64,000 bases of DNA from Hesseltinella vesiculosa (Eukaryota; Mucoromycota; Mucoromycetes; Mucorales; Cunninghamellaceae). The stretch's first letter is position 1, and each line of letters opens with the position of its first letter. The position numbers and the translations under genes are program-made. Below the pieces are notes generated by a model, which was not told where the DNA came from, did no database searches, and saw nothing but the letters and a program-made list of their open reading frames with translations. The stretch lies in contig MCGT01000028.1 in assembly GCA_002104935.1 (NCBI GenBank), positions 186,001 to 250,000 on the forward strand, given 5' to 3'. Below, piece after piece: positions 2,732 through 64,000 of this stretch.

Positions 2732-4393
2732 TCAATTCTTTAGGAGATTCAACACATTAAAAGTGAGACACACAACCATCACCAAAATCCCATAGATAGC
2801 CAAAGCCAAGGAAGCGATTTTCCCAGTATTCCAAGGGTCGTTTTCATGAATTTTGAAGTAGAACAATCCAGGCAGGATGAACGAGATAGTTGTGGATCCA
2901 GTTGAACCAACAAAGGCAAACACCAGATCCAATTTGGAGACGGTAATAGCGACCAAGTAGCTGGAGACGAGGATAGCCGTCGTCATGGCAAAGTATTTGA
3001 AGGGTGAAGGAAGAGGAGGCACCTTGAGACCTCGGACCTCAGGAGAGCGCCAGGCCAGGACCTTGTCCAAGGAAGCACGGCAAGGATGGGCTTGCAATGG
3101 ATAGCTGAAAATCACCAGGATTACAATAGCCATTTGGCCACCGGCCACAAACAGACTTTGCCGATCTTCAAAAAAAAAAAAGAGGAGGGGTGAGTGTTGC
3201 TGAGCCAATTTCATTTTTTTTTTCGCGCAGCTTTACATTCCGAAATAACATTGCCACTGACGTCCTTGCCAAAGCTAAGGTAGCCCAGAATAGCAATGAT
3301 TTCATAGATAAATGCAGCAGACCCGATGGAGATACCAATGGTTTTGTTAATCACTTTTTGTGAATTGTCCTTCAGCTCATTGTATACAGAGAAAATCTAA
3401 TGCCAGAAAAAAAAAAGGGGGGGTGTCATCAGTTGCCATTGTTTTTATGACTCCTTTTTTTTCCCTTTACGTTTTGATGACAGGTGAACGCAAATACAAA
3501 AACAGGAAGGTGACGGAAGAATTTGAAGGAAAAGTGGACCAACTCGACCGACCCTTCGGGAGGAGGGGTGAAATCCTTGCCAAAGTAGTGCTCAATGACA
3601 ATGGCACATAAATACAAAACAGCAATCAGGGCCACCACACTTGTATACTTGAGTGAATCTAGTTTGCGCAAGAAACTAAGAGGCAAAACTGCTGTGGCCA
3701 TAAACAAAGTGATCCAAAAGCGTCGATCCATCAACACAGCACTCTGTTGAGCGTCAGGGGCAAATGCAGCGACGACCTACTCCGACAGTGAAGTGATTTA
3801 GGACCGGAAGCGCGGAGACGGAAGAAATACCTGAGGCATCAAATCACCAATGATAATGAGATAACTGATGGCCACACCAAAGCACTTGATAGCAATAGCA
3901 AGATCAAACAACACAGCCAAATTGGGCCAAGTTAGCTTGGATATAGCAAAAAAGGAGGCATTGCGGCCATTGGTGTGGCTAGCACAGTTGGATAAGAAGT
4001 AAAGGCCCAAACCGGAAGCACCCGCTGAAAACAATATCACAAAGAAACCAGGAATCAAGCCAACGGAAGCCATGGCGGAAGGCTGTCGTCCGATGTGAGA
4101 AAGAAAGGTCAAAGGAAGGAGCGGAAGAAAACGGGGTTGCTTACCATGGCCAACATGCCTGTGCCTAGAATGGTGTTTGCCAAATTGATGGAACAGCTGA
4201 ATGGAGTGGCGGTAGGGATCAAGTGCTCTGGCGGATCATCATCTTGGATAGGTTGGTAAAGAGAAGAAGCTGCCGATCTTGCCAGCAAAGGTCGTTGGTC
4301 GTCTTCCCAACTTGTAATGTCTGTGGATGTCAACGCTGAAGAAGACGCAGACCGATCGTCAAGACTACCCACGGGTGTGTAGGAATGGCTCAT
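2732..4393 (-). CDS. vacuolar-type amino acid transporter (AVT/SLC38 family)
   Basis: A multispanning amino acid/auxin permease family protein, probably moving neutral amino acids across the vacuolar membrane with protons. Five exons (4145-4393, 3831-4082, 3471-3776, 3237-3396, 2732-3165) join in frame to 466 residues. A hydrophilic N-terminus of about 70 residues with DDRSASSSALTSTD precedes the conserved first helix SINLANTILGTGMLAM. It is followed by GLIPGFFVILFSAGASGLGL, then about nine more hydrophobic segments, including FVGSTGSTTISFILPGLFYF near the end. The layout resembles AVT5/6/7-type fungal proteins and SLC38 relatives. Which AVT it is cannot be decided here. It shares a 190 bp upstream gap with the divergent coiled-coil gene. 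Confidence 0.88.
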
Positions 4394-4586
4394 GGGAAAA
4401 AAGAAAAACCTAAAAATAAAAAAATAAAAAAAGAGGGGAAAGGAAGAAGAAAATGGAATTGAAAAAACGAGCCTTTTTTGTCGGGGCAAAAAAAAAAAAA
4501 AAAAAACCGAGAATGTCATTCATTTTCTGCCCTTTCTCTCTCCTACTTCTATTTTTTTCTGTAACGGATACTTGAAGATTGCGTCA

Positions 4587-53821: not shown

Positions 53822-55693
53822 TCACCAATTATCAAAGTTGCCGTAGCTAGAGGGCTTGGGCTTTTTCACAGCGCCTTGAACGCCAATGGTATCGTCTTGA
53901 GTTATGTGGTCGCTATCTCGTTTCCTTGACCCAAGATACTTCCCCACACCAGCTGATGATAAGTCTGTAGGCTTGTTGCGCGCAGACAGGTTGGGTCCAA
54001 ACCAACCCATCTTGTTCAATTTTGCCTCTTGTTTCTCTTTCTCAGCTTGGATGCTAGCCGCATTGGCTTCCTTTTCCATCTTGCTCTTCAAGCGATCCTT
54101 GTAAACTTGGAATGGATCCACCAAGACTTCAACTTGTTTCATCCGTATCGTTCGCTCCGGGCGATCGCCATCGTCAGCAGGTACAGCCTCCATCTTGTCC
54201 AGTATATTCAGGCCACCGACGACGCGACCAAAGACTGTATGTTTCTTGTCTAGATGGGTACAGGGGCGATAGGTAATAAAGCTGCCAAAGACAAAGTCAG
54301 TATATGTTATGCCACGACAAACGCAAATTTCTTACAATTGAGATCCATTTGTATCCTTCCCATGGTTAGCCATACTGAGAATCCCCCTGTCATCATGGGA
54401 AAGGCCTGGTTTGAATTCGTCTGGGAAGGCTTGCTTGAAATAGGATTCACCTCCACGACCTGTGCCTGATGGATCACCCCCTTGGATCTACGAATATTTA
54501 AAAAAAAAAAAAAAAAGTCAGTGGCTGTGACAGCAGCACGAGGCAAGGCTACATTACCATGAAATTTTTGATACTACGATGAAAGATCACGCTGTCATAG
54601 TACCCATTCTTAGCCAACATTATAAAGTTATAGCAAGTCCTTGGGGTCTACAAAAGGAAATAACTGTCAATTTCGCTTGTTTGGATTTCCGTACACGTCT
54701 CCTACTACCTTGTCACAATGCAATTCCATATTGAGGTTACCGAAATTAGTGACAATGCGTACGTAGCCCTTGGTTTTGATTTTTTTGAACATGTACTCGT
54801 CTTCGTTGATGAGGGCTCGTTCATTGACAGTGACTGGAGCGCCGACTGTCGACGTCAGTGATTCGGCTACAGCACCTGTGGTGAAATGGGCTGCGTTGTA
54901 AACATTGGCTTGATTGACTGGCTGGTGATAGCTGACGCTGGGTTTATCCTTGACCACTGGTTTGTCTTTGAGTTTGTCCTCCTTTGCCTGCAGCTCATTA
55001 AAAATACGCCCTGCTGTACTGCCCATTCCTTTGACATTGATATTGTTGATTGGTCTGCGTTTTTCTCGTTCTTCGGCTTCGTCCACCACCTTGAGATTAT
55101 TCTTCAAATAGTGAAAGTTCGACATATCCCGTTTCTCTAAGTTGTGGGGATCCTATGGACAAAAAATTAAGAATGAGAGGGCTTGTTTAGAGTGAAGCCT
55201 TTCTAACCTGAATCATGATAATATCTTGGCGAGTAAAAGGGTCATCGGTGAGAAGATCTTTCCAATACTTGGCTTTGATGTTCAGCCGTTCAATGGTGTC
55301 ATAAGCAAACACATTGCCAGTAGATTTGATGGCGGCAATGGCAGTGTGATCAGTGAACGTTTTAAAGGTGACAGGGCAGTAGAAATCGCCATTGTCGTTC
55401 TTGTGAAACTGCAGTTTGTTCAGGTCTTTGGTTTCAAGCTTGGCACCAGTTACAGGATTCGTACCGTATTTTTTGATGTAAGGGATAATGTTGACAAGAT
55501 CAAACACAATGCCATCGTCGGTACACACGGGATGATCAAAAGGCTGCAACGATAATGAGCAACAGTAAAATGGCAATCGTTTGAATCCTTGGCTGACTCG
55601 CTTCCCCGTTTTCCCACTGGAAGCTGAATGTTGTCCTACTTCACCGCTCCATTCCGAGTGCGTTATATACAGCTTATCTGTCCACTTCCCCAT
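53822..55693 (-). CDS. U-box cyclophilin (PPIL2/CYC60 type)
   Basis: A nuclear, spliceosome-associated prolyl isomerase-like protein with a U-box E3 ligase domain. Start [15 protein letters not shown], then [39 protein letters not shown] and [16 protein letters not shown] (U-box), with [16 protein letters not shown] ending exon 1. [20 protein letters not shown] opens the cyclophilin domain, followed by [42 protein letters not shown] and a C-terminal YGNFDNW like the family's last residues. It is split by about six introns. Convergent with NF-YA, only 96 bp apart. Confidence 0.93.
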
Positions 55694-56005: not shown

Positions 56006-57084
56006 TTAGTTCATGGCAGGCTCGATCGATTTTAAGACTTCACCCAGGTCGTCATTGTCTTTTTCTGCCATTGAAAAGAAGTTCATTGGAGAATCGGAAG
56101 GTGGGAGGCTGGGTGTGGATGGCTTGGCGGCAGTCTCGGAAGCACCATGGGTGAGGTAAGATTCAAAATGAACCGGTTTCTTAAAGGACACCCGGTTTTC
56201 GGACCACTTGGAGGCGATTTGTCGTTGGCGGGTCATTGTATCAGGTAAACATTCGTACCGATTCGCTCGCTTGGAAGCTACTGGGAATGCCAGATGCCAT
56301 TGCTGGAGTACAGTATAACAATCATCCAGCTCAGCGGCCCACTTATGTGCCAGTGTGCCTAGCCGTGCACATATGCCCATGTGCACCATGGCCATGGACA
56401 TAAAGTGCTGCAGTCGGAAGAGGGTCGTGTATTCCCTGTGCTCACAAACATTCACGATAAGTAGACAGCACAGCAACCTCTCCATCCTTCCTCTTCCTCT
56501 AGCCTTACCTATATATTTCCACGAGCACCACTTGAAGCTGATAAATTTGCCAAATCAATAAAAAAAACTGCATGCCACTCTTGATGGTCGGGGACAACGA
56601 CTTACTTTATCTAGGATCACAACTGCAGAAATGAGCTTTTGCATGGTGAATTCGCATAGTTCTCTACATGGAATAGAGAGCCATGAACGTTGCTGTTGGT
56701 GTGAGTGCGAATCGTTGCCGTTCCAAAAACATGCATACAAGTCATTCATCATGTGATCTAGTGCAAGACGTTTGAATCGTTTTAGTAGACGTCGCGCCTA
56801 GTAATGATGATTTACACAAAAAAATATCAGTAACATGTCTTTGTATGCATTAGAAAGGCTCATACTTCAGCAGTACGCCGAAAGCGATGGAAATGGCGAT
56901 GCTGGTTGTTATTCTTGTAGAAAAGTCGATCCAAAATGGCGACGTCGATCCAGAGCTTGGATTGCGCTGCAAATGATCGTCTATAGATCCCAAGACGAAT
57001 CAAGTTTTGATCATGATCAGCATGTGCTTTTTTATCTATTCTTTCCTTGGGAAACCATTTCTTTGAAGTGATGTGTGATGTCAT
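56006..57084 (-). CDS. NEPRO-domain protein (nucleolus and neural progenitor protein family)
   Basis: 303 residues in four exons (56866-57084, 56606-56797, 56509-56537, 56006-56477), all in phase. The N-terminal half carries the family hallmark LWIDVAILDRLFYKNNNQHR, followed by FRRTAEARRLLKRFKRL formed across the first intron. A helical region continues to about residue 230. The C-terminal part is Ser/Pro-rich. Family members are nucleolar and have been linked to ribosomal RNA processing; the exact role here is unknown. Exon 3 is only 29 bp. Confidence 0.75.
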
Positions 57085-57323
57085 TTCCTAATGAAAGACA
57101 ACGGCACGGTACTGTATTTCCAAAAAGAAAGACGCAATTCAAAAAAGCGAAAAGTGTGCAGGGGGCTACAAAAGAAGGAATAAACAGAGTCAGCTTAGAA
57201 AGGACGACCAATTAGATATTGCACTCACCAAGTAATGGGATAGCACCAGATAGGTGGAGAAAAGAGTGAGAGGATGGTGAGTCGTTCGTCCAAAAAAAGA
57301 ACACACACACTTACGGGAAAGCC
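57085..57323. other. region after the Fanzor stop: candidate guide-RNA/element end
   Basis: 239 bp between the Fanzor stop and the NEPRO start. In known Fanzor and TnpB systems the non-coding guide RNA overlaps the 3' part of the gene and runs to the element end. I see no clear terminal inverted repeat or stable hairpin by eye, so the right boundary is open. Confidence 0.3.
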
Positions 57324-60300
57324 CTAAACTTGTACATTTTCACTATGTACAATGGGGGAAGCGGTAGGAGGAGGGTTGTCCATCGGGTCGGGGTCATTGG
57401 GTGCACCTTGGACGTCACCGTCTTGATCGGTTACCTTCTGAGAAAGGACTTGGGGACGGGAGGCACCTTCGATGGCAAGACGCGCAACAGACAGGATGTT
57501 CCTCGCAGCATTGCAGTCGCGCTGCCACATCTGTCCACAGTGTTGGCACACAGTGACAGAGTGCAGGTTTGATCCAGCAATTTCAATGGGCTTGCAACCT
57601 TGACGGCCACACTTGCTGCACACTTGAGTTGTCCACTTTTCGTCCGTGGACAACAACACCAGCCGATCTTCTCGATCTGCTCTTTGGAGCAGTTTCTTCA
57701 AGCGGGCGGCCAGGCCGCTGGGATGGCCTCGAAACGAACGACGACCAAATTTACCATCACCCAAGCAAACCAGGGTTACCTTGCTCTTTGGTGTTGCAAC
57801 AAATTCCTGCTTCCTCCATTTTTGTCTATAAAATATATCAGTTATCGTTCAAGGCTGCACTACATCAAAACATACCGAGGAAGGGGTGGTGGGGTATTCA
57901 CATTGGTCAAGACATCAGGATCATTTGCGAAACTCTGATGTGCATGTGGGCTTGGAGCAGTTTCGCTACGCTGGCGGGAGGACGAATCGATAATTGGCTG
58001 TAAGAACAGCGGTGAGGTCGAGGCCAAGGCGAATGCAGTGTCACCCACATCTACAGCAACACTGGGCTCAGAAGACGTTCCAATGATTGACACCGAAGGA
58101 TTGTCATTTTCAATCGGTAAAGAGACTTGTGACGTGCTGCTACCAGAGGATATGTTGATCGAGGGAGCACGGTTGCCAGCAATGGCAATGGCAATCGCGT
58201 TTTGTGAAGCTGCAATGCTAGTGGCACTTCCACGGCCCATTTGGACTGAAGGCTGGGTAGAGATCAATGGCATCGCAGGAGTAACTTGCTGCAAGGTTGT
58301 TGTCGCTCGGGTCCCGGTTTGCATTGGCTCTTAGGGCTGGGGATTATCGATAGAAATTCTGATCGAAGGGGCGTAGCCTTCCGCAATAGCGATAGCGATA
58401 GCGATAGCGCCATGTGCGGTGGCATTGGCAGTGGCGCGACTTGTTGGGTTGGTGCCCACGCTTGGTTGTGATGTTGCATGCAGTGGAGCGGAGAGGACGG
58501 GTGACAAGGCCAAAGGGGGTGCGGATTCTGACGTAGCAGTAGCATGTGGGCCATCATGCTCATAGGCGTCCATATCAACTTGCTCTTCTTGAAGAGATTG
58601 CATTGACACATTTCCTTCTGGCACAGTAAGATCTACCAGTTCTCGGTCGCTCTGTCGTCCATACTTGTTACCGCCCGTCAAGAAGATATTGACGAGTTCC
58701 CCATCAGCTTTCTGGCGGCCTCTGTAGTTCAGGAATCGAAGAGGTGGCAGATGTTCAGCGTAAAAATCTTTCAGTAGCTGAGCTCGTTCCAGGACAGCCT
58801 TCGTATACAGATCCAACTTTGATAGGTCCATGGTGCAGGGGGAGGGGATCGCGCTTTCCAAGGTGTCGATGCCATGCTGAGACTTGAGGTCACGGATCCG
58901 TTGGTTGGTCCTGTGGAAGCCTGCGTCGTGGAAGTATTCCTTGGAGGAGTAGCGGCGCATTTCGTGCCGGGGGTCAGAGGCCATAGCTCCTTCATTGTCG
59001 TAGATCGATGTATCGGAACCGTCAACAGCAACGTATACTTGTCCAACACCAGGGTCAACACCCCATACTCTGCACTCAGACAGGTCGTCGGTATCGATAT
59101 CTTCCAAAGTGAGGGGCGCTTCTTGATTAACAGGCTTCAGTTTTTTAAATGTTGCCGAGACTGCGTACCCGTCAGACATCAGAGAGTCTTCGAACACCCC
59201 TTGGCTAAATAGAAGAATTAAGAATGAGTACCATCTTTCCCTTCCCACCCCTACTTACTTTTTAAACTTTGTCATGTCAAGCAGGCCGAAGTTCTTGTGA
59301 GGAGCGGCAAGAGCTCCAGGCTGGTTTTCATTGCTTGACGATGACTGTGGAAGCAGGTGGTGGAGGCCAAAATGATGCAAAAGGGTCCCCATTGTGGAAG
59401 CGTTGATGCGGACATAGCGAAGTCGGAAGCTAGGAACAGGTAGCAAGGTAAACATGCGGCACGGGGGACTGAAGAGGTAGGCGGGCGGCTTGAAGCAGTC
59501 TTGGGCCAGTTGCTGCTTTGCAGTTTCCACGGTATCTTTGACCATGGTACGAGAATCGGCATCAAAAGCAGGCGGGAGTTTGTTGGCATCAAAACGGGCC
59601 GACTGGCTGTTGATTATCTTTGCAATGGCCGAGACAAGTCGCGTTCGTTTCTGGTGTCCAAGTTTTGCCCAACCAGGTATTTGTGATAATTCATGCCGTA
59701 CCCAACTGAGTGATGCTTCCTTCTGGTTGGTTGCTGGCTGCTCTTCGTCGGCTTTGTTCCACATCTCAAACGTACCTAATACCTTTGCCATGACGGGTAA
59801 AAATAAATGTGGCCATCCAGAATACGTGGCAGTCGTCAGCATAACATTGTTGTCACCATCAGCAATGCGGAGGGCAGGTTGGTCGTCCGGGGCACTGCCA
59901 GCATTGCTACTAACATCAGAGTCAGAAGCAGCTACAGATTGCAAGTTCAAGCCACCAAATCGGGTTGTTGCTGAGACTGACAATGCTGTATCAAGGGACA
60001 TCATGTCGTCATCACCGTCTAGATCATCAGACGCCAGCGGTTCAAGCGGGATCCAAGGGGCGGTAGGCGTGTTGTGCGAGGAGGAGGCTGTGGCAGGTTG
60101 GGTGGATGCAGTAGCTTCCCGGCTTGCTTGCTCAAACGTTTGCTTTCGATGGCGCTCTTCGGCCAGCGCCTGCCGTTCTCGTAGATCTTCTTGAATTTGC
60201 CGAATGGCCGGCTCCAGTAGCGCATGGCAGTCATTGATGATCAGGTTAAATTTGCTTTGGACTTTTTCCTTCAAACGTGAATCCATTGAGGTATAGTCAG

Positions 60301-61201
60301 GTAATTCGGGTTCGAATTTTGGGTCTTGTGCAATGCGATCATAGATGTATAAAGCATAAGCTCGGGCCTGTCCACTCTTCAGTTCCTGCTCAAAAAAAAA
60401 AAAATTAGAACCGCGTTTTCTTTTTCTGCCTCCACTATAAAACGTCATTACTGGGACTAAACGCAGAAGCTTTGCTGACATGAAAGTCACAAGACATTGT
60501 GACATTCCTTCCACAATATGGTTCTTCCAATCCTTTGCGCATTGCATAGCTGTCGATGAGAATGCACTGGAAAACGTCACTGGGCGACGGCCAACAGGGG
60601 ACGCGACGGGTGGGCACCATGGCTGGTTTCCAGGTGGACCATACTCTGTGCGAAATGTAGCAAATGCCGAGGTCAGATCTGCCCGTAATTCTTGCGACAA
60701 GGTTCTTGTGTTCGTCACAGCTTTTCCCATTAGCAGCTGGAAGACAGAGGTGAAGAAAACTTGGTCGAACAAGGCAGGTGGGAGGCTATCATTTGGTCGA
60801 CACAACAGTGTCGTCACAAAATGGCGAAGGAACAAGTGTGAGAGGATGACGATGTCTCGGTTGTGAGACGCCAGCGACCTGACGGCAGAGATGAACGTAG
60901 GTGGCACGGTGGAGTCAAGGGCATCATTGGCTGGACGCTTTATGAGATTTGCAAGACCATGCTTCAGAGTGTGCTGGCGCGTGGTCCCGCCAAGCTTTCT
61001 CTTTGTCAACACACGTTTAGTGGACTTGTGCGAGGGGCAGCGGTGGCTGGAGGCTCTGGAATGCGTTTGTGCGATCCGGCGTCGGATTTCGGCGGCTGCC
61101 AAGGAGGCTTCATCACCTAGCTTTTCCAGTCTATCCACTTCTTGGACAGGGTCGTTGGTCGCCAAATTTTGGAAGATGGGCGGAAAACTCAGTTCTGGCA
61201 T
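57324..61201 (-). CDS. Fanzor: eukaryotic TnpB-like RNA-guided nuclease, interrupted
   Basis: Four exons (60452-61201, 59259-60385, 57876-59204, 57324-57825) are phase-consistent over 1236 codons, with one in-frame TAA at 58331-58333. The N-terminal ~600 residues are Fanzor-specific (SVFQLLMGKAVTNTRTLSQE) and helical. The RuvC-like nuclease begins at CRVWGVDPGVGQVYVAVDG (first Asp), continues with HRTNQRIRDLK and LRFLNYRGRQKADGEL, and resumes after a 330-residue low-complexity stretch. There it reads KVTLVCLGDGKFGRRSFRGH, STDEKWTTQVCSKCG (second acidic residue and zinc ribbon), CQHCGQMW and QRDCNAARNIL (third Asp). All three acidic residues and the CxxC pairs are present. The low-complexity insert has Ala-Ile repeats. 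A guide RNA is expected from the 3' end but cannot be delimited. Confidence 0.88.
58383..58411 (+). repeat. hexanucleotide tandem repeat within the Fanzor linker
   Basis: Four to five units of GCGATA on the plus strand encode Ala-Ile dipeptides in the Fanzor frame. A related shorter run (GCAATG units) lies at about 58176-58200. The two flanking protein segments, EGYAPSIRISI and GNRAPSINISS, are similar, so a stretch of about 200 bp seems duplicated within the linker. Confidence 0.7.
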
Positions 61202-61633
61202 CTTGCTTGGCTTTCTTTTCGTCAGCACTTTGCATTCGTTTTACAGTGCTTCTTGATCTTCCTGTTCTTTGACGTTTTGATCCTGAATCTAGACAACCTC
61301 ATGTGAATCAGATCTTTGTATTGTTTATCTTGATTAGCTTACGTGTTGCACTTTGCGCTTCGCTTGCTTCTTGACGTTCTAGTCTTATCCTTCTTTTCCT
61401 AAACATTCTTTGCTTAAAGTTGTGCGTTTCAATCGTCATTTCAAACAAATCTTGAAAGCTTGGGAAAAAGGGATGAATGAAAAGTGAAAAAGAATAAAAA
61501 GGAACATCGGAGTGAGAAAAAAAGTAAAGCAGCCAGCTGCACGCGTACAGCATTGGTAAACAGATGGTTTTTATTCAGTAGCTATTTTAGTTCAGCAAAG
61601 ACGCTTTTTCTATATCCTCTTTACGTTCCTTGT
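61202..61633. other. upstream region of the Fanzor gene
   Basis: A minus-strand frame at 61308-61553 encodes a basic peptide (FRKRRIRLERQEA) with a splice donor after SATR. It could be a 5' exon of the Fanzor gene, but the frame it would feed into ends at about 61140, so I do not join it. Confidence 0.35.
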
Positions 61634-61930
61634 TTATATCTTAGTCCTTTCGTTCACTCCTACTGTAAAAGTACTTGTCACCTTCCTCTTATTTTCAACT
61701 AATTGTTTAATTCTTTTCGTTTGACCCCATGTCTCTTTTTTTAACCTGTTGTCTTTTCTAGACCCCAGCGAGTTACTTCTTGGAGGATCATAGGCTGCTC
61801 GTAAAAGCTGCTTCGAGGCCTTGCCGTAATTCTCTGTCACAGTCTTCTTGTTGGCGGTGTCGTTCCCCATCAACAATTGAAAGACGGAAGCGAATTCATG
61901 CTCCATTGTCATATCAAGGAAGTATGGTTC
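61634..61930 (-). pseudogene. relic of a second Fanzor N-terminus
   Basis: A minus-strand frame reads FASVFQLLMGNDTANKKTVT then LLRAAYDPP. This matches FTSVFQLLMGKAVTNTRTLS and FRTEYGPP of the adjacent Fanzor (residues about 150-190). The similarity stops on both sides and no nuclease domain follows, so this is a fragment of a related copy, in the same orientation, directly upstream of the larger gene. Confidence 0.6.
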
Positions 61931-62113
61931 AGTTCGTCATCGCATACTAAACTTACCCAGGAATTTGTAACTCCGGGAGGCGACTCAACACCAGACAATG
62001 CGGCACTAAAAGAAAGACTGAAAATGAAAAAAAAAAAAAATGAAGGGTTGGGCTAGACGTTTTCTCTTATTGTTTTTTTTTTTTTTTTTTCACTTACCCA
62101 CTCTAGATTCACC
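61931..62113 (+). promoter_or_regulatory. BOLA3 upstream region
   Basis: Includes an A run at 62027-62040 and a T run at 62072-62090 just before the start codon. The T/C-rich leader before the ATG is typical of this window. A decayed minus-strand exon with a GTAAGT donor (about 61960) may be part of the Fanzor relic. Confidence 0.35.
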
Positions 62114-62472
62114 ATGTATTCTCGACTTGTCCTGGGATCCATTCGCCGATCTTATTCTACCTCTGCCCCTGAAGGTCTAAGCGCGGGTGAACTGAATATT
62201 TACAACAAACTTAGCAATGAATTCAAACCTATTCAATTACGAGTAGCCGATGTCTCAGGTGGTTGTGGTTCCATGTATGCCATTGAAATCGTCTCCAAGG
62301 CTTTTGAAGGAAAAAGCATGGTAAAACAACATCGATTGGTCAATGACTTGTTAAAACAAGAAATCAAAGATATGCATGGCTTGCAGGTAAAGACAGCTGT
62401 GATTGAGAGAAACTGCCGTCACCTCACCTCCATTTTTTGTCCGTACACTAGCTCCGTACCTCGAGTAAATGA
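62114..62472 (+). CDS. BolA-like protein 3, mitochondrial
   Basis: An iron-sulfur cluster maturation factor that acts with glutaredoxin 5 and NFU1 to load [4Fe-4S] clusters on mitochondrial enzymes. Two exons (62114-62386, 62452-62472) give 97 residues. The first 20 ([20 protein letters not shown]) form an Arg/Ser-rich amphipathic presequence. The BolA fold follows: [20 protein letters not shown], with the conserved cysteine, and [20 protein letters not shown], with the His used as cluster ligand. The C-terminus is HGLQLRTSSK. An AATAAA lies 25 bp after the stop. Confidence 0.93.
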
Positions 62473-62602
62473 TTTTTTTCATAGTCCATGCAAAGAATAA
62501 AAGGCTGTGTATTATATTTCCATATGGGGGCAATGGATATGGGCAATAGATGGTTTGGGCATGAAATGAATACAGATGAAGATGATATAAAACCAAGGGA
62601 GT

Positions 62603-63173
62603 CTATGAGTTGACAGAGAACTTGTACCTAAAGAGTTTACATGATGAGCGCCTATTTGGAATAGCTGCCAAATAAATCACATACCCGCATTTTTTACAGT
62701 TGTAGAAGACTGTTTGGCCTTCATCAGCAGATCGCAGCTGCATGGTATGGTAAGCCATTTCGTCGTTGCCACATTGAGGACATTTTTCCTTAATCTACAA
62801 ATAATAATAGGGCACAAAGGGTGAGTTTGGCCAGTGTACTACGAAGCGGTAGAAGCAACCGCTTTACCATGGCTTGATCTTCTCGTTGCTGTGTGTTGTT
62901 TTGTACAAGTTGACGCTTGGCCTTTAGTGCTGACTGAAATGCTCGTTCTGAAGAGGCTGTAATAACCTCAATGGCCTTGTCATCTATGACAGTTAACAAA
63001 TGAAGTGTCAGCTACATCAAATCGTTCAGGATGACTAGCCGCATACTTGATAATTCGTGACCATAGCCACACGATTGGCATCGAATAATATCCTCTGTGT
63101 CGCCAGGCATGTCTAGCAAGTTGCCACATTCGTTGCAGAATATGAGGGACCCAATAACATTGCCTTGATTCAT
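62603..63173 (-). CDS. RNA polymerase I subunit RPA12 (A12.2)
   Basis: The small Pol I subunit needed for RNA cleavage and termination. Four exons (63047-63173, 62868-62983, 62685-62794, 62603-62627) give 125 residues. The N-terminal zinc ribbon is FCNECGNLLDMPGD with RCQSCGY. The C-terminal TFIIS-like ribbon is EKCPQCGNDEMAYHTMQLRS, then ADEGQTVFYNCKKCGYKFS, where Asp-Glu is the acidic pair of the transcript cleavage site. Length matches the family. Convergent with BOLA3. Confidence 0.95.
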
Positions 63174-64000
63174 TTTGGTACTGATGCACGTCGAAGAGAG
63201 GGATGTCAGGAAAAATAAAAAAAAAAAGAGGGAGTGGAAGCTGACCTGCAAAAAAAGCCACAGGCAAGATAAAAAAAAGCCAACTGCCCTTTTCATTCCT
63301 CTTTTTTTTTTTTGGTTGGATATCTTGGCTTTTGAAATGGGCAAACATAGGTTCCCAATTTCTACACTTAACAAGCTTCTACTGACTCGCACCAGGATTT
63401 TCTCCCGAAAGTCTTCACAGCAGCTTGAATGTGTGAAGGGTCCAACACTTCACCTCTCCCTACCACATACCAAACTATGGCTCGATCCAAGTGGAATTGA
63501 GTAAATCTGCCCTTCCTACCAGCAGTGCTATTATAGTAATATGTGTGTTACTATTGCTCAGCGTTACGCGGTAGTAATGGGTTCGCCAGTATACGGTGGA
63601 TTTGGGCTAAATAACTTTCAGTTTAATTATTATCTCTCGGGTTGGCCGGTTCATAAACCCGTTTGCCGCACGACAACAGAAAATTGCCACTGCAGTTTCC
63701 CTGTCGGTAGCTATGAGTTTCATTTTTTCTATATGGAGCAGCAGAATGGCTTTCGCGTGCATTATGATTTGTTTTCGCGCGCACTGCAAATCACTTTCTC
63801 GCAAACTGGAAATTGATTTGGCAGTTTGTTCCAATTGGCTTTCCCCTTTAGTATTTTTTTTGTGTTTCCAAGTTTGGAGGGTTGACCTTTTTTTTACTAC
63901 AGTAAACGCGCGCAATGTAAAAAGATTGGCAGAATTCTCACAACCTTGGCTACAAAAAAAAAAAAAAATGCTAGAGCTGCATGACAATGGAGTGCCCTGA
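63174..64000. other. right edge of the window, no gene recognised
   Basis: The RPA12 5' flank and beyond. A plus-strand frame at 63541-63816 and a minus-strand frame at 63607-63987 overlap; neither has recognisable content. A 12-residue A run is at about 63954-63967. A gene may start outside the window. Confidence 0.4.

Follow-up and report, generated by a model that had tools for sequence, protein, structure and literature searches.

At positions 57324..61201 of a 64,000-nucleotide stretch of the Hesseltinella vesiculosa genome (Cunninghamellaceae, Mucorales; the whole stretch is called the window below), a first-pass annotation made from the letters alone had placed a Fanzor nuclease locus. 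Fanzors are eukaryotic RNA-guided nucleases, fungal relatives of CRISPR-type scissors, and are studied as genome-editing tools. The gene lies where it had been placed, on the minus strand, but the element that carries it extends beyond those limits, from 57112 to 62020, and is one of seven near-full copies on seven contigs of the genome (the window copy and L010–L015). The gene comprises the following features, in which conservation refers either to these copies or to five family members that were aligned over the core of the protein.

60452..61201, minus strand: exon 1 as first drawn; the 11 bp with the start codon of the other near-full copies (about 61144) are absent here
59259..60385, minus strand: exon 2, an N-terminal region, presumably of REC type; bounded by GT..AG in each of the seven near-full copies
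57876..59204, minus strand: exon 3, RuvC-I and the insertion, with an in-frame stop in the window copy
59054..59056, minus strand: codon of the RuvC-I catalytic Asp (GVDPG), invariant in five of five family members
58331..58333, minus strand: in-frame TAA stop in exon 3, at codon 917, absent from the six other near-full copies
57876..58633, minus strand: low-complexity insertion of about 250 residues with AIAIAIA...APSIxIS repeats, within the split RuvC domain
57324..57825, minus strand: exon 4, RuvC-II Glu, TNB zinc ribbon, RuvC-III Asp and tail; PF07282, E=4.3e-11
57639..57641, minus strand: codon of the alternative RuvC-II catalytic Glu (STDEKW), six residues before the first CxxC
57516..57518, minus strand: codon of the RuvC-III catalytic Asp (QRD), invariant in five of five family members

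The motifs GVDPG and STDEKW, the two CxxC pairs and QRDCNAARN all stand on the minus strand at the places first given for them. In the six frames of the window the pattern E-x6-CxxC-x(8-60)-CxxC-x(4-8)-D has a single match (57641, minus), and the whole pattern had none in each of 20 dinucleotide-shuffled windows. Fanzors are described as differing from most TnpBs by a DPG motif and by a Glu relocated to six residues before the zinc finger (PMC10711439, cited here, as are the other PMC papers, from excerpts). All five family members carry the former (GVDPG in four, GIDPG in one), and the window carries the latter as E-KWTTQV-C; the Asp described in the same excerpt as following the zinc-finger motif by 4–8 residues does so here by six, in CQHC-GQMWQR-D. 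Exon 4 matched the Pfam family PF07282 (Cas12f1-like TNB) at 43.3 bits against a cut-off of 26.3, while a Pfam scan of the exon 1–3 pieces of the window matched no family.

The core alignment and the profile built from it comprised the five family members, all from the Hesseltinella genome; those on contigs C34, C5, C78 and C85 are 78%, 50%, 49% and 38% identical to L013, a copy on C1. The three acidic residues of the presumed active site (RuvC-I Asp, Glu and RuvC-III Asp) and the four Cys are invariant in all five sequences. Searched against PDB sequences, the profile found SpuFz1 first (E=3.6e-8), aligning chain residues 707–946 with profile positions 191–450, so that homology to a known Fanzor covers 240 residues of the chain and goes beyond the zinc ribbon. 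LaTranC (3.1e-5), TnpBs (from 2.3e-4), Cas12m (2.9e-4) and GtFz1 (9.3e-4) came next, and the two unrelated chains appeared only at E=0.15 and 0.52. Every match at E<0.01 was to a TnpB, Fanzor, TranC or Cas12-type model, except for a PADLOC model labelled Csx1 (1.8e-5) that aligned over the zinc-ribbon region. Neither observation that would have refuted the first-pass reading, best profile hits outside the Fanzor/TnpB clan or missing acidic residues, was made. Both Fanzors found in the PDB search, SpuFz1 and GtFz1, belong to Fanzor1 (PMC11423790), and no chain named for Parasitella was among the PDB matches listed. Together, the motifs, PF07282, the match to SpuFz1, the Hesseltinella contigs and the defined element ends bear out a Fanzor transposon locus in a fungal genome, and we regard the gene as Fanzor1-like, a class assignment that is based on best matches and element type rather than on a tree.

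The four-exon model was reproduced, with GT..AG introns of 66, 54 and 50 nt and 1236 codons including the stop, and all seven near-full copies preserve its intron borders. Of the NCBI proteins of the same species (P0001, P0002 and P0003), P0001 (1246 residues) uses all three junctions and P0002 (1180 residues) differs at the first; both derive from other copies. The coordinates and introns of the model therefore stood, but its start at 61201 is unsafe: all six other near-full copies have at 61144 an 11-bp stretch, absent in the window, that supplies an in-frame ATG, and P0001 and P0002 both begin at the residue it encodes. The accompanying statement that the exons are in phase across 1236 codons did not hold, codon 917 being an in-frame TAA (58331–58333) that had been overlooked. 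Owing to this stop and the missing start region, the window copy cannot encode the protein drawn from it; the gene itself is real, but this copy of it is dead and is unsuitable as a template for work on the protein. When spliced from the start in the 11-bp stretch, two of the seven near-full copies (L012 on C2 and L013) are uninterrupted and encode 1215 residues, whereas the other five are broken, L010 by one frameshift near the C terminus, L011, L014 and L015 by frameshifts and the window copy by its stop.

The intact protein is about twice the usual size of a Fanzor1, most Fz1 proteins having 600–700 residues (PMC11423790). Both oddities that the first-pass annotation had singled out were upheld: the N-terminal part is about 275 residues longer than that of SpuFz1, and an insertion of about 250 residues, composed of two AIAIAIA...APSIxIS units and others, separates RuvC-I from the TNB part. 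L013 has its catalytic residues at D658, E1111 and D1152; their SpuFz1 equivalents are D383, E541 and D606 (PMC10432273). In the excerpt of PMC11423790, an RuvC insertion (FRI) of about 100 residues is found only in Parasitella and Rhizopus. The families of L051 and L049 have, by eye, a similar-looking diverged segment at the insertion site, that of L049 with in-frame stops, and no segment of this size is present in L050 or in the Absidia protein P0005. L051 (C5:203000–210500) represents a second oversized Fanzor family, stop-free over the 1100 residues modelled and with a similar repeat-rich insertion; a DDE_3 transposon is inserted just downstream of its Fanzor gene.

The insertion also has a history of its own. 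Between L013 and L043, the diverged copy on C34, the DNA is 92–98% identical over element positions 3106–4446, a sharp block that covers the RuvC insertion, and 57–70% identical over positions 739–2955 upstream and 73–91% downstream. Because this block is flanked by diverged DNA and the synonymous divergence (dS) of the insertion is just 0.075, recombination or conversion appears to have carried the insertion and its neighbourhood between families in recent times.

The limits and ends of the element, bounded where similarity between copies is lost, were as follows.

57112..62020, minus strand: whole Fanzor element, 4909 bp, with its left end at 62020 and its right end at 57112, bounded where the seven near-full copies lose similarity
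57110..57111, minus strand: TA target dinucleotide next to the right end; at its left side the window copy has TT instead
57166..57228, minus strand: putative 63-nt intron in the 3′ untranslated region, GTGAGT ... CTAAGCTGAC ... CTTTTGTAG, proposed from a comparison of Fanzor families
57112..57165, minus strand: 54-nt terminal block, a candidate guide-RNA scaffold by position and by similarity between families

The whole-genome search suggested by the first-pass annotation yielded these ends and the seven near-full copies, which are 97.1–98.7% identical in pairs. The left end reads CAGTCTTTC and the right end GGAAATACAG; they form imperfect inverted repeats, with an inner motif (A)ATGTCGCAtTG at the left and a near-complement at the right. 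TA precedes CAGT at five of the nine left ends read (L010–L013 and L043) and directly follows the end in 10 of the 13 family-1 right ends read, the others being L024, with TT, and L055 and L056, with no recognisable end. A TA target duplication of the Tc1/mariner type was seen as TA on both sides in five of the eight copies with two ends read; the window copy has it at the right side only. A 10-bp match on both sides of L043 (TAGTCTTGGT), which would have pointed to a longer, MuDR-type target duplication, was rejected, and TA was kept as the target since L010–L013, also flanked by TA on both sides, have only TA in common.

A 16-base right-end pattern, allowing up to one mismatch, occurs at 28 places in the genome, compared with one for the reversed control. 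All nine exact matches are family-1 elements. Seven of the 19 inexact matches have a TNB match about 0.4 kb away, and eight of the other 12 were read, of which L066, L067 and L069 hold Fanzor-like coding remnants. As the pattern itself contains TA, it is uninformative on the TA preference of families beyond family 1. A third Fanzor family was seen at L067 (C78) and L069 (C45), with IDEFRTSRVC, IDPG, the right end GGAAAAACAG and a similar splice-like layout.

Elements of this kind are already known; the oversized variant is new. PUl-4-type Fanzor1 elements (Bao and Jurka 2013; PMC3627910) are likewise flanked by TA, have inverted ends and hold only a Fanzor gene, but differ in host and protein size, and the element described here has imperfect ends, for which no matching partner mariner was identified. 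SpuFz1 (Fanzor1 of Spizellomyces punctatus, PDB 8gkh), the best solved-structure match, shares the order D, E, zinc ribbon, D and a guide RNA expected at the right end, which here is predicted. Unlike in SpuFz1, 453 residues rather than 158 separate the RuvC-I Asp from the Glu, and TA lies beside the element in place of the CATA target motif reported there (PMC10432273). PpFz1, the Fanzor1 of Parasitella parasitica, is also from a Mucorales host and also has an extra segment in RuvC, but its FRI is folded and about 100 residues long, as opposed to a low-complexity, repeat-rich segment of about 250; its guide-RNA scaffold is very short, a property to which the candidate short scaffold here can be likened (PMC11423790). 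Among the protein matches listed was a relative from another member of the Mucorales, P0005 of Absidia cylindrospora (an unnamed protein product that we label a Fanzor), which is 26% identical over 92% of the core but has 755 residues and lacks the large insertion. A search of open-licence PMC, to which subscription papers do not belong, found no paper that joins Fanzor and Hesseltinella, and a literature search for Hesseltinella vesiculosa with transposable element gave nothing related by title.

The locus is very probably an inactivated copy of a TA-targeting transposon with a Fanzor1-like nuclease gene and no detected transposase. We suggest that intact copies elsewhere in the genome would express, from the four-exon gene, the protein of about 1215 residues, which would bind a guide RNA with a scaffold reaching to the right end of the element and with the flanking DNA as its guide. 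The RuvC domain (D658, E1111, D1152) would then cut matching double-stranded DNA, the cut could cause the element to be copied back or kept at the site, and a Tc1/mariner-like transposase from elsewhere would move the element. No transposase open reading frame was recognised inside the element in the list of open reading frames. DDE_3 matches in the genome number at least 164, none shown to have the ends of the Fanzor element. The DDE_3 element beside the Fanzor of L051 was considered as a partner, its internal TACTGTAGTTAATGTCGCA having seemed a shared end, and was discarded when similarity between its copies continued past this sequence on both sides. In L054 a Tc1-like element sits roughly 0.45 kb away from a right end resembling that of family 2, but its perfect 47-bp ends have a different sequence.

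Several results weigh against this reading. No transposase with matching ends was found, and four of the nine left ends lack TA|CAGT, the window copy having TT|CAGT and L014, L015 and L044 lacking CAGT itself. An AlphaFold prediction of P0002 from six sequences, the structural check on the split RuvC proposed earlier, was too poor to use, with a mean predicted local distance difference test score of 33.4 and a predicted template modelling score of 0.25. The intact pair L012 and L013 differ by 16 synonymous and 34 nonsynonymous changes, a ratio of nonsynonymous to synonymous rates (dN/dS) of 0.67 from few changes, so recent selection is not demonstrated. RNAalifold gave a near-nil consensus for ten right ends, at -2.2 kcal/mol, with six pairs, of which one showed a two-sided change, and a covariation term of -0.08; the 3′ region as a single strand had a structure z-score of -1.06.

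The right end itself allows two accounts. Ahead of it, families 1 and 2 have in common GTGAGT, CTAAxCTxAC and a tract that is rich in pyrimidines and closes with TAG; there is also a GTAAGT after the stop codon, and family 3 has GTAAGT and the TAG tract. The simplest reading of this shared layout would be an intron in the 3′ untranslated region with its acceptor 42–57 nt before the right end (42–54 nt, and 57 nt by count in L067). Defined as at least nine pyrimidines in the 12 nt directly before YAG, 46–60 nt before the end, an acceptor-like site is present in 7 of the 13 tails listed, two of them copies of one family. Of eight tails compared with shuffles, five were positive, against a shuffled rate of 6–12% for each of the five; in the failing tails the site of L062 lies at 42 nt and that of L065 at 45 nt, outside the set range, and L066 has too few pyrimidines. 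The acceptor signal appears modest, and weaker still as the families are related. A helix between branch site and splice site was rejected, being no better than in shuffles, in which it was as long in 19–94% of cases across ten tails. An Rfam search of 56500–62600 with E up to 1 returned solely a Plasmodium RNase P at 34.4 bits (gathering threshold 100), treated as chance.

It is quite possible, if short of probable, that the conserved 3′ block holds only the inverted repeat and splicing or polyadenylation signals of the 3′ untranslated region, with any guide RNA elsewhere, for example overlapping the coding end, as the GtFz1 guide RNA does (PMC10432273). The block shows no covariation and contains the inverted-repeat motif common to the left end, as this account would have it. 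In the Fanzors studied, by contrast, the right end is where the guide RNA stops (PMC10432273), and the length of 42–57 nt is close to that of the short PpFz1 scaffold; because the guide part of the PpFz1 RNA includes nt 50–58 (PMC11423790), a scaffold of such length is plausible. For the preferred reading, in which the scaffold lies in this block, the layout raises the quite improbable idea that the candidate guide RNA of these Fanzor families is the last exon of the transcript of the nuclease itself. Splicing, or its failure, would then set the 5′ end of a short scaffold running into the flanking DNA as guide, and the spliceosome would couple production of the nuclease mRNA and the guide. If true, the shared splice-like right end would shape the guide RNA, giving a eukaryotic transposon that makes protein and guide from one transcript.

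We consider it rather unlikely that the element is a plain relic, with all copies drifting and a nuclease no longer functional in the species, although a stop or frameshifts break five of the seven near-full copies and the dN/dS of the two intact copies would fit such drift. The near-identity of the copies on seven contigs argues for recent spread instead, and L051, the relative from another family, has kept its modelled reading frame stop-free. Relative to the diverged copy L043, moreover, the protein shows strong constraint, as judged from segments of the comparison with L013: dN is 0.31 and dS 1.91 for residues 1–232, 0.063 and 0.51 for 608–798, and 0.079 and 0.32 for 1049–1215. The dN/dS of these three non-insertion segments with measurable dS is thus 0.12–0.25; two more (233–607) are saturated. 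The L043 model retains intron 2 unspliced, but the comparison has a gap there. That the host took over the gene for a cellular function is barely conceivable, for although the gene keeps its introns and large extra segment and a Mucorales Fanzor binds cyclophilins through its RuvC insertion (PMC11423790), the copies are multiple and recent, with defined ends at different sites, and for the window copy, broken by a stop and sitting between two host genes, the idea is refuted.

On the reading of a TA-targeting Fanzor1-like transposon, one Mucorales genome holds several related families, some about twice the usual length and with a repeat-rich RuvC segment, which shows how far the protein stretches. 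The genome offers natural pairs of intact and broken Fanzors for testing, and further work would best be directed at the intact copies and at the layout that the right ends share.

The insertion sites of some copies seem to touch other transposons. On its left flank, L012 (C2:117772) sits at the TA that ends an inverted-repeat element present in many copies, with a DDE_3 match next to it, and the right flanks of L057 and L063 (family 2) have a common sequence at or near the TA that by eye resembles another mariner end; Fanzor elements may insert preferentially at the TAs of transposon ends. The 5′ leader of the element contains a 92-codon open reading frame (window 61634–61912, minus), kept in all seven near-full copies, with an internal stop in L015, that resembles a piece of a Fanzor N terminus (43% over 46 residues to P0004, E=2e-8, in a single comparison).

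Two host genes flank the window copy.

Neighbour at the right end: start codon 27 bp from the right end of the element; weak NEPRO_N match, 16.9 bits (cut-off 24.9)
Neighbour at the left end: start codon 93 bp from the left end of the element; BolA gene, 54.8 bits (cut-off 25.7)

Since these start codons, taken from the list of open reading frames, are divergent and so close to the ends, insertion seems to have taken place in the short upstream region common to both genes. A further gene at 62980–63400 (minus), with a zinc ribbon, is presumably related to the RNA polymerase I subunit RPA12. A neighbouring gene at 54667–55693 (minus) has U-box and zf-NOSIP matches in its first piece and resembles the U-box cyclophilin PPIL2, a coincidence of note given that a Mucorales Fanzor binds cyclophilins.

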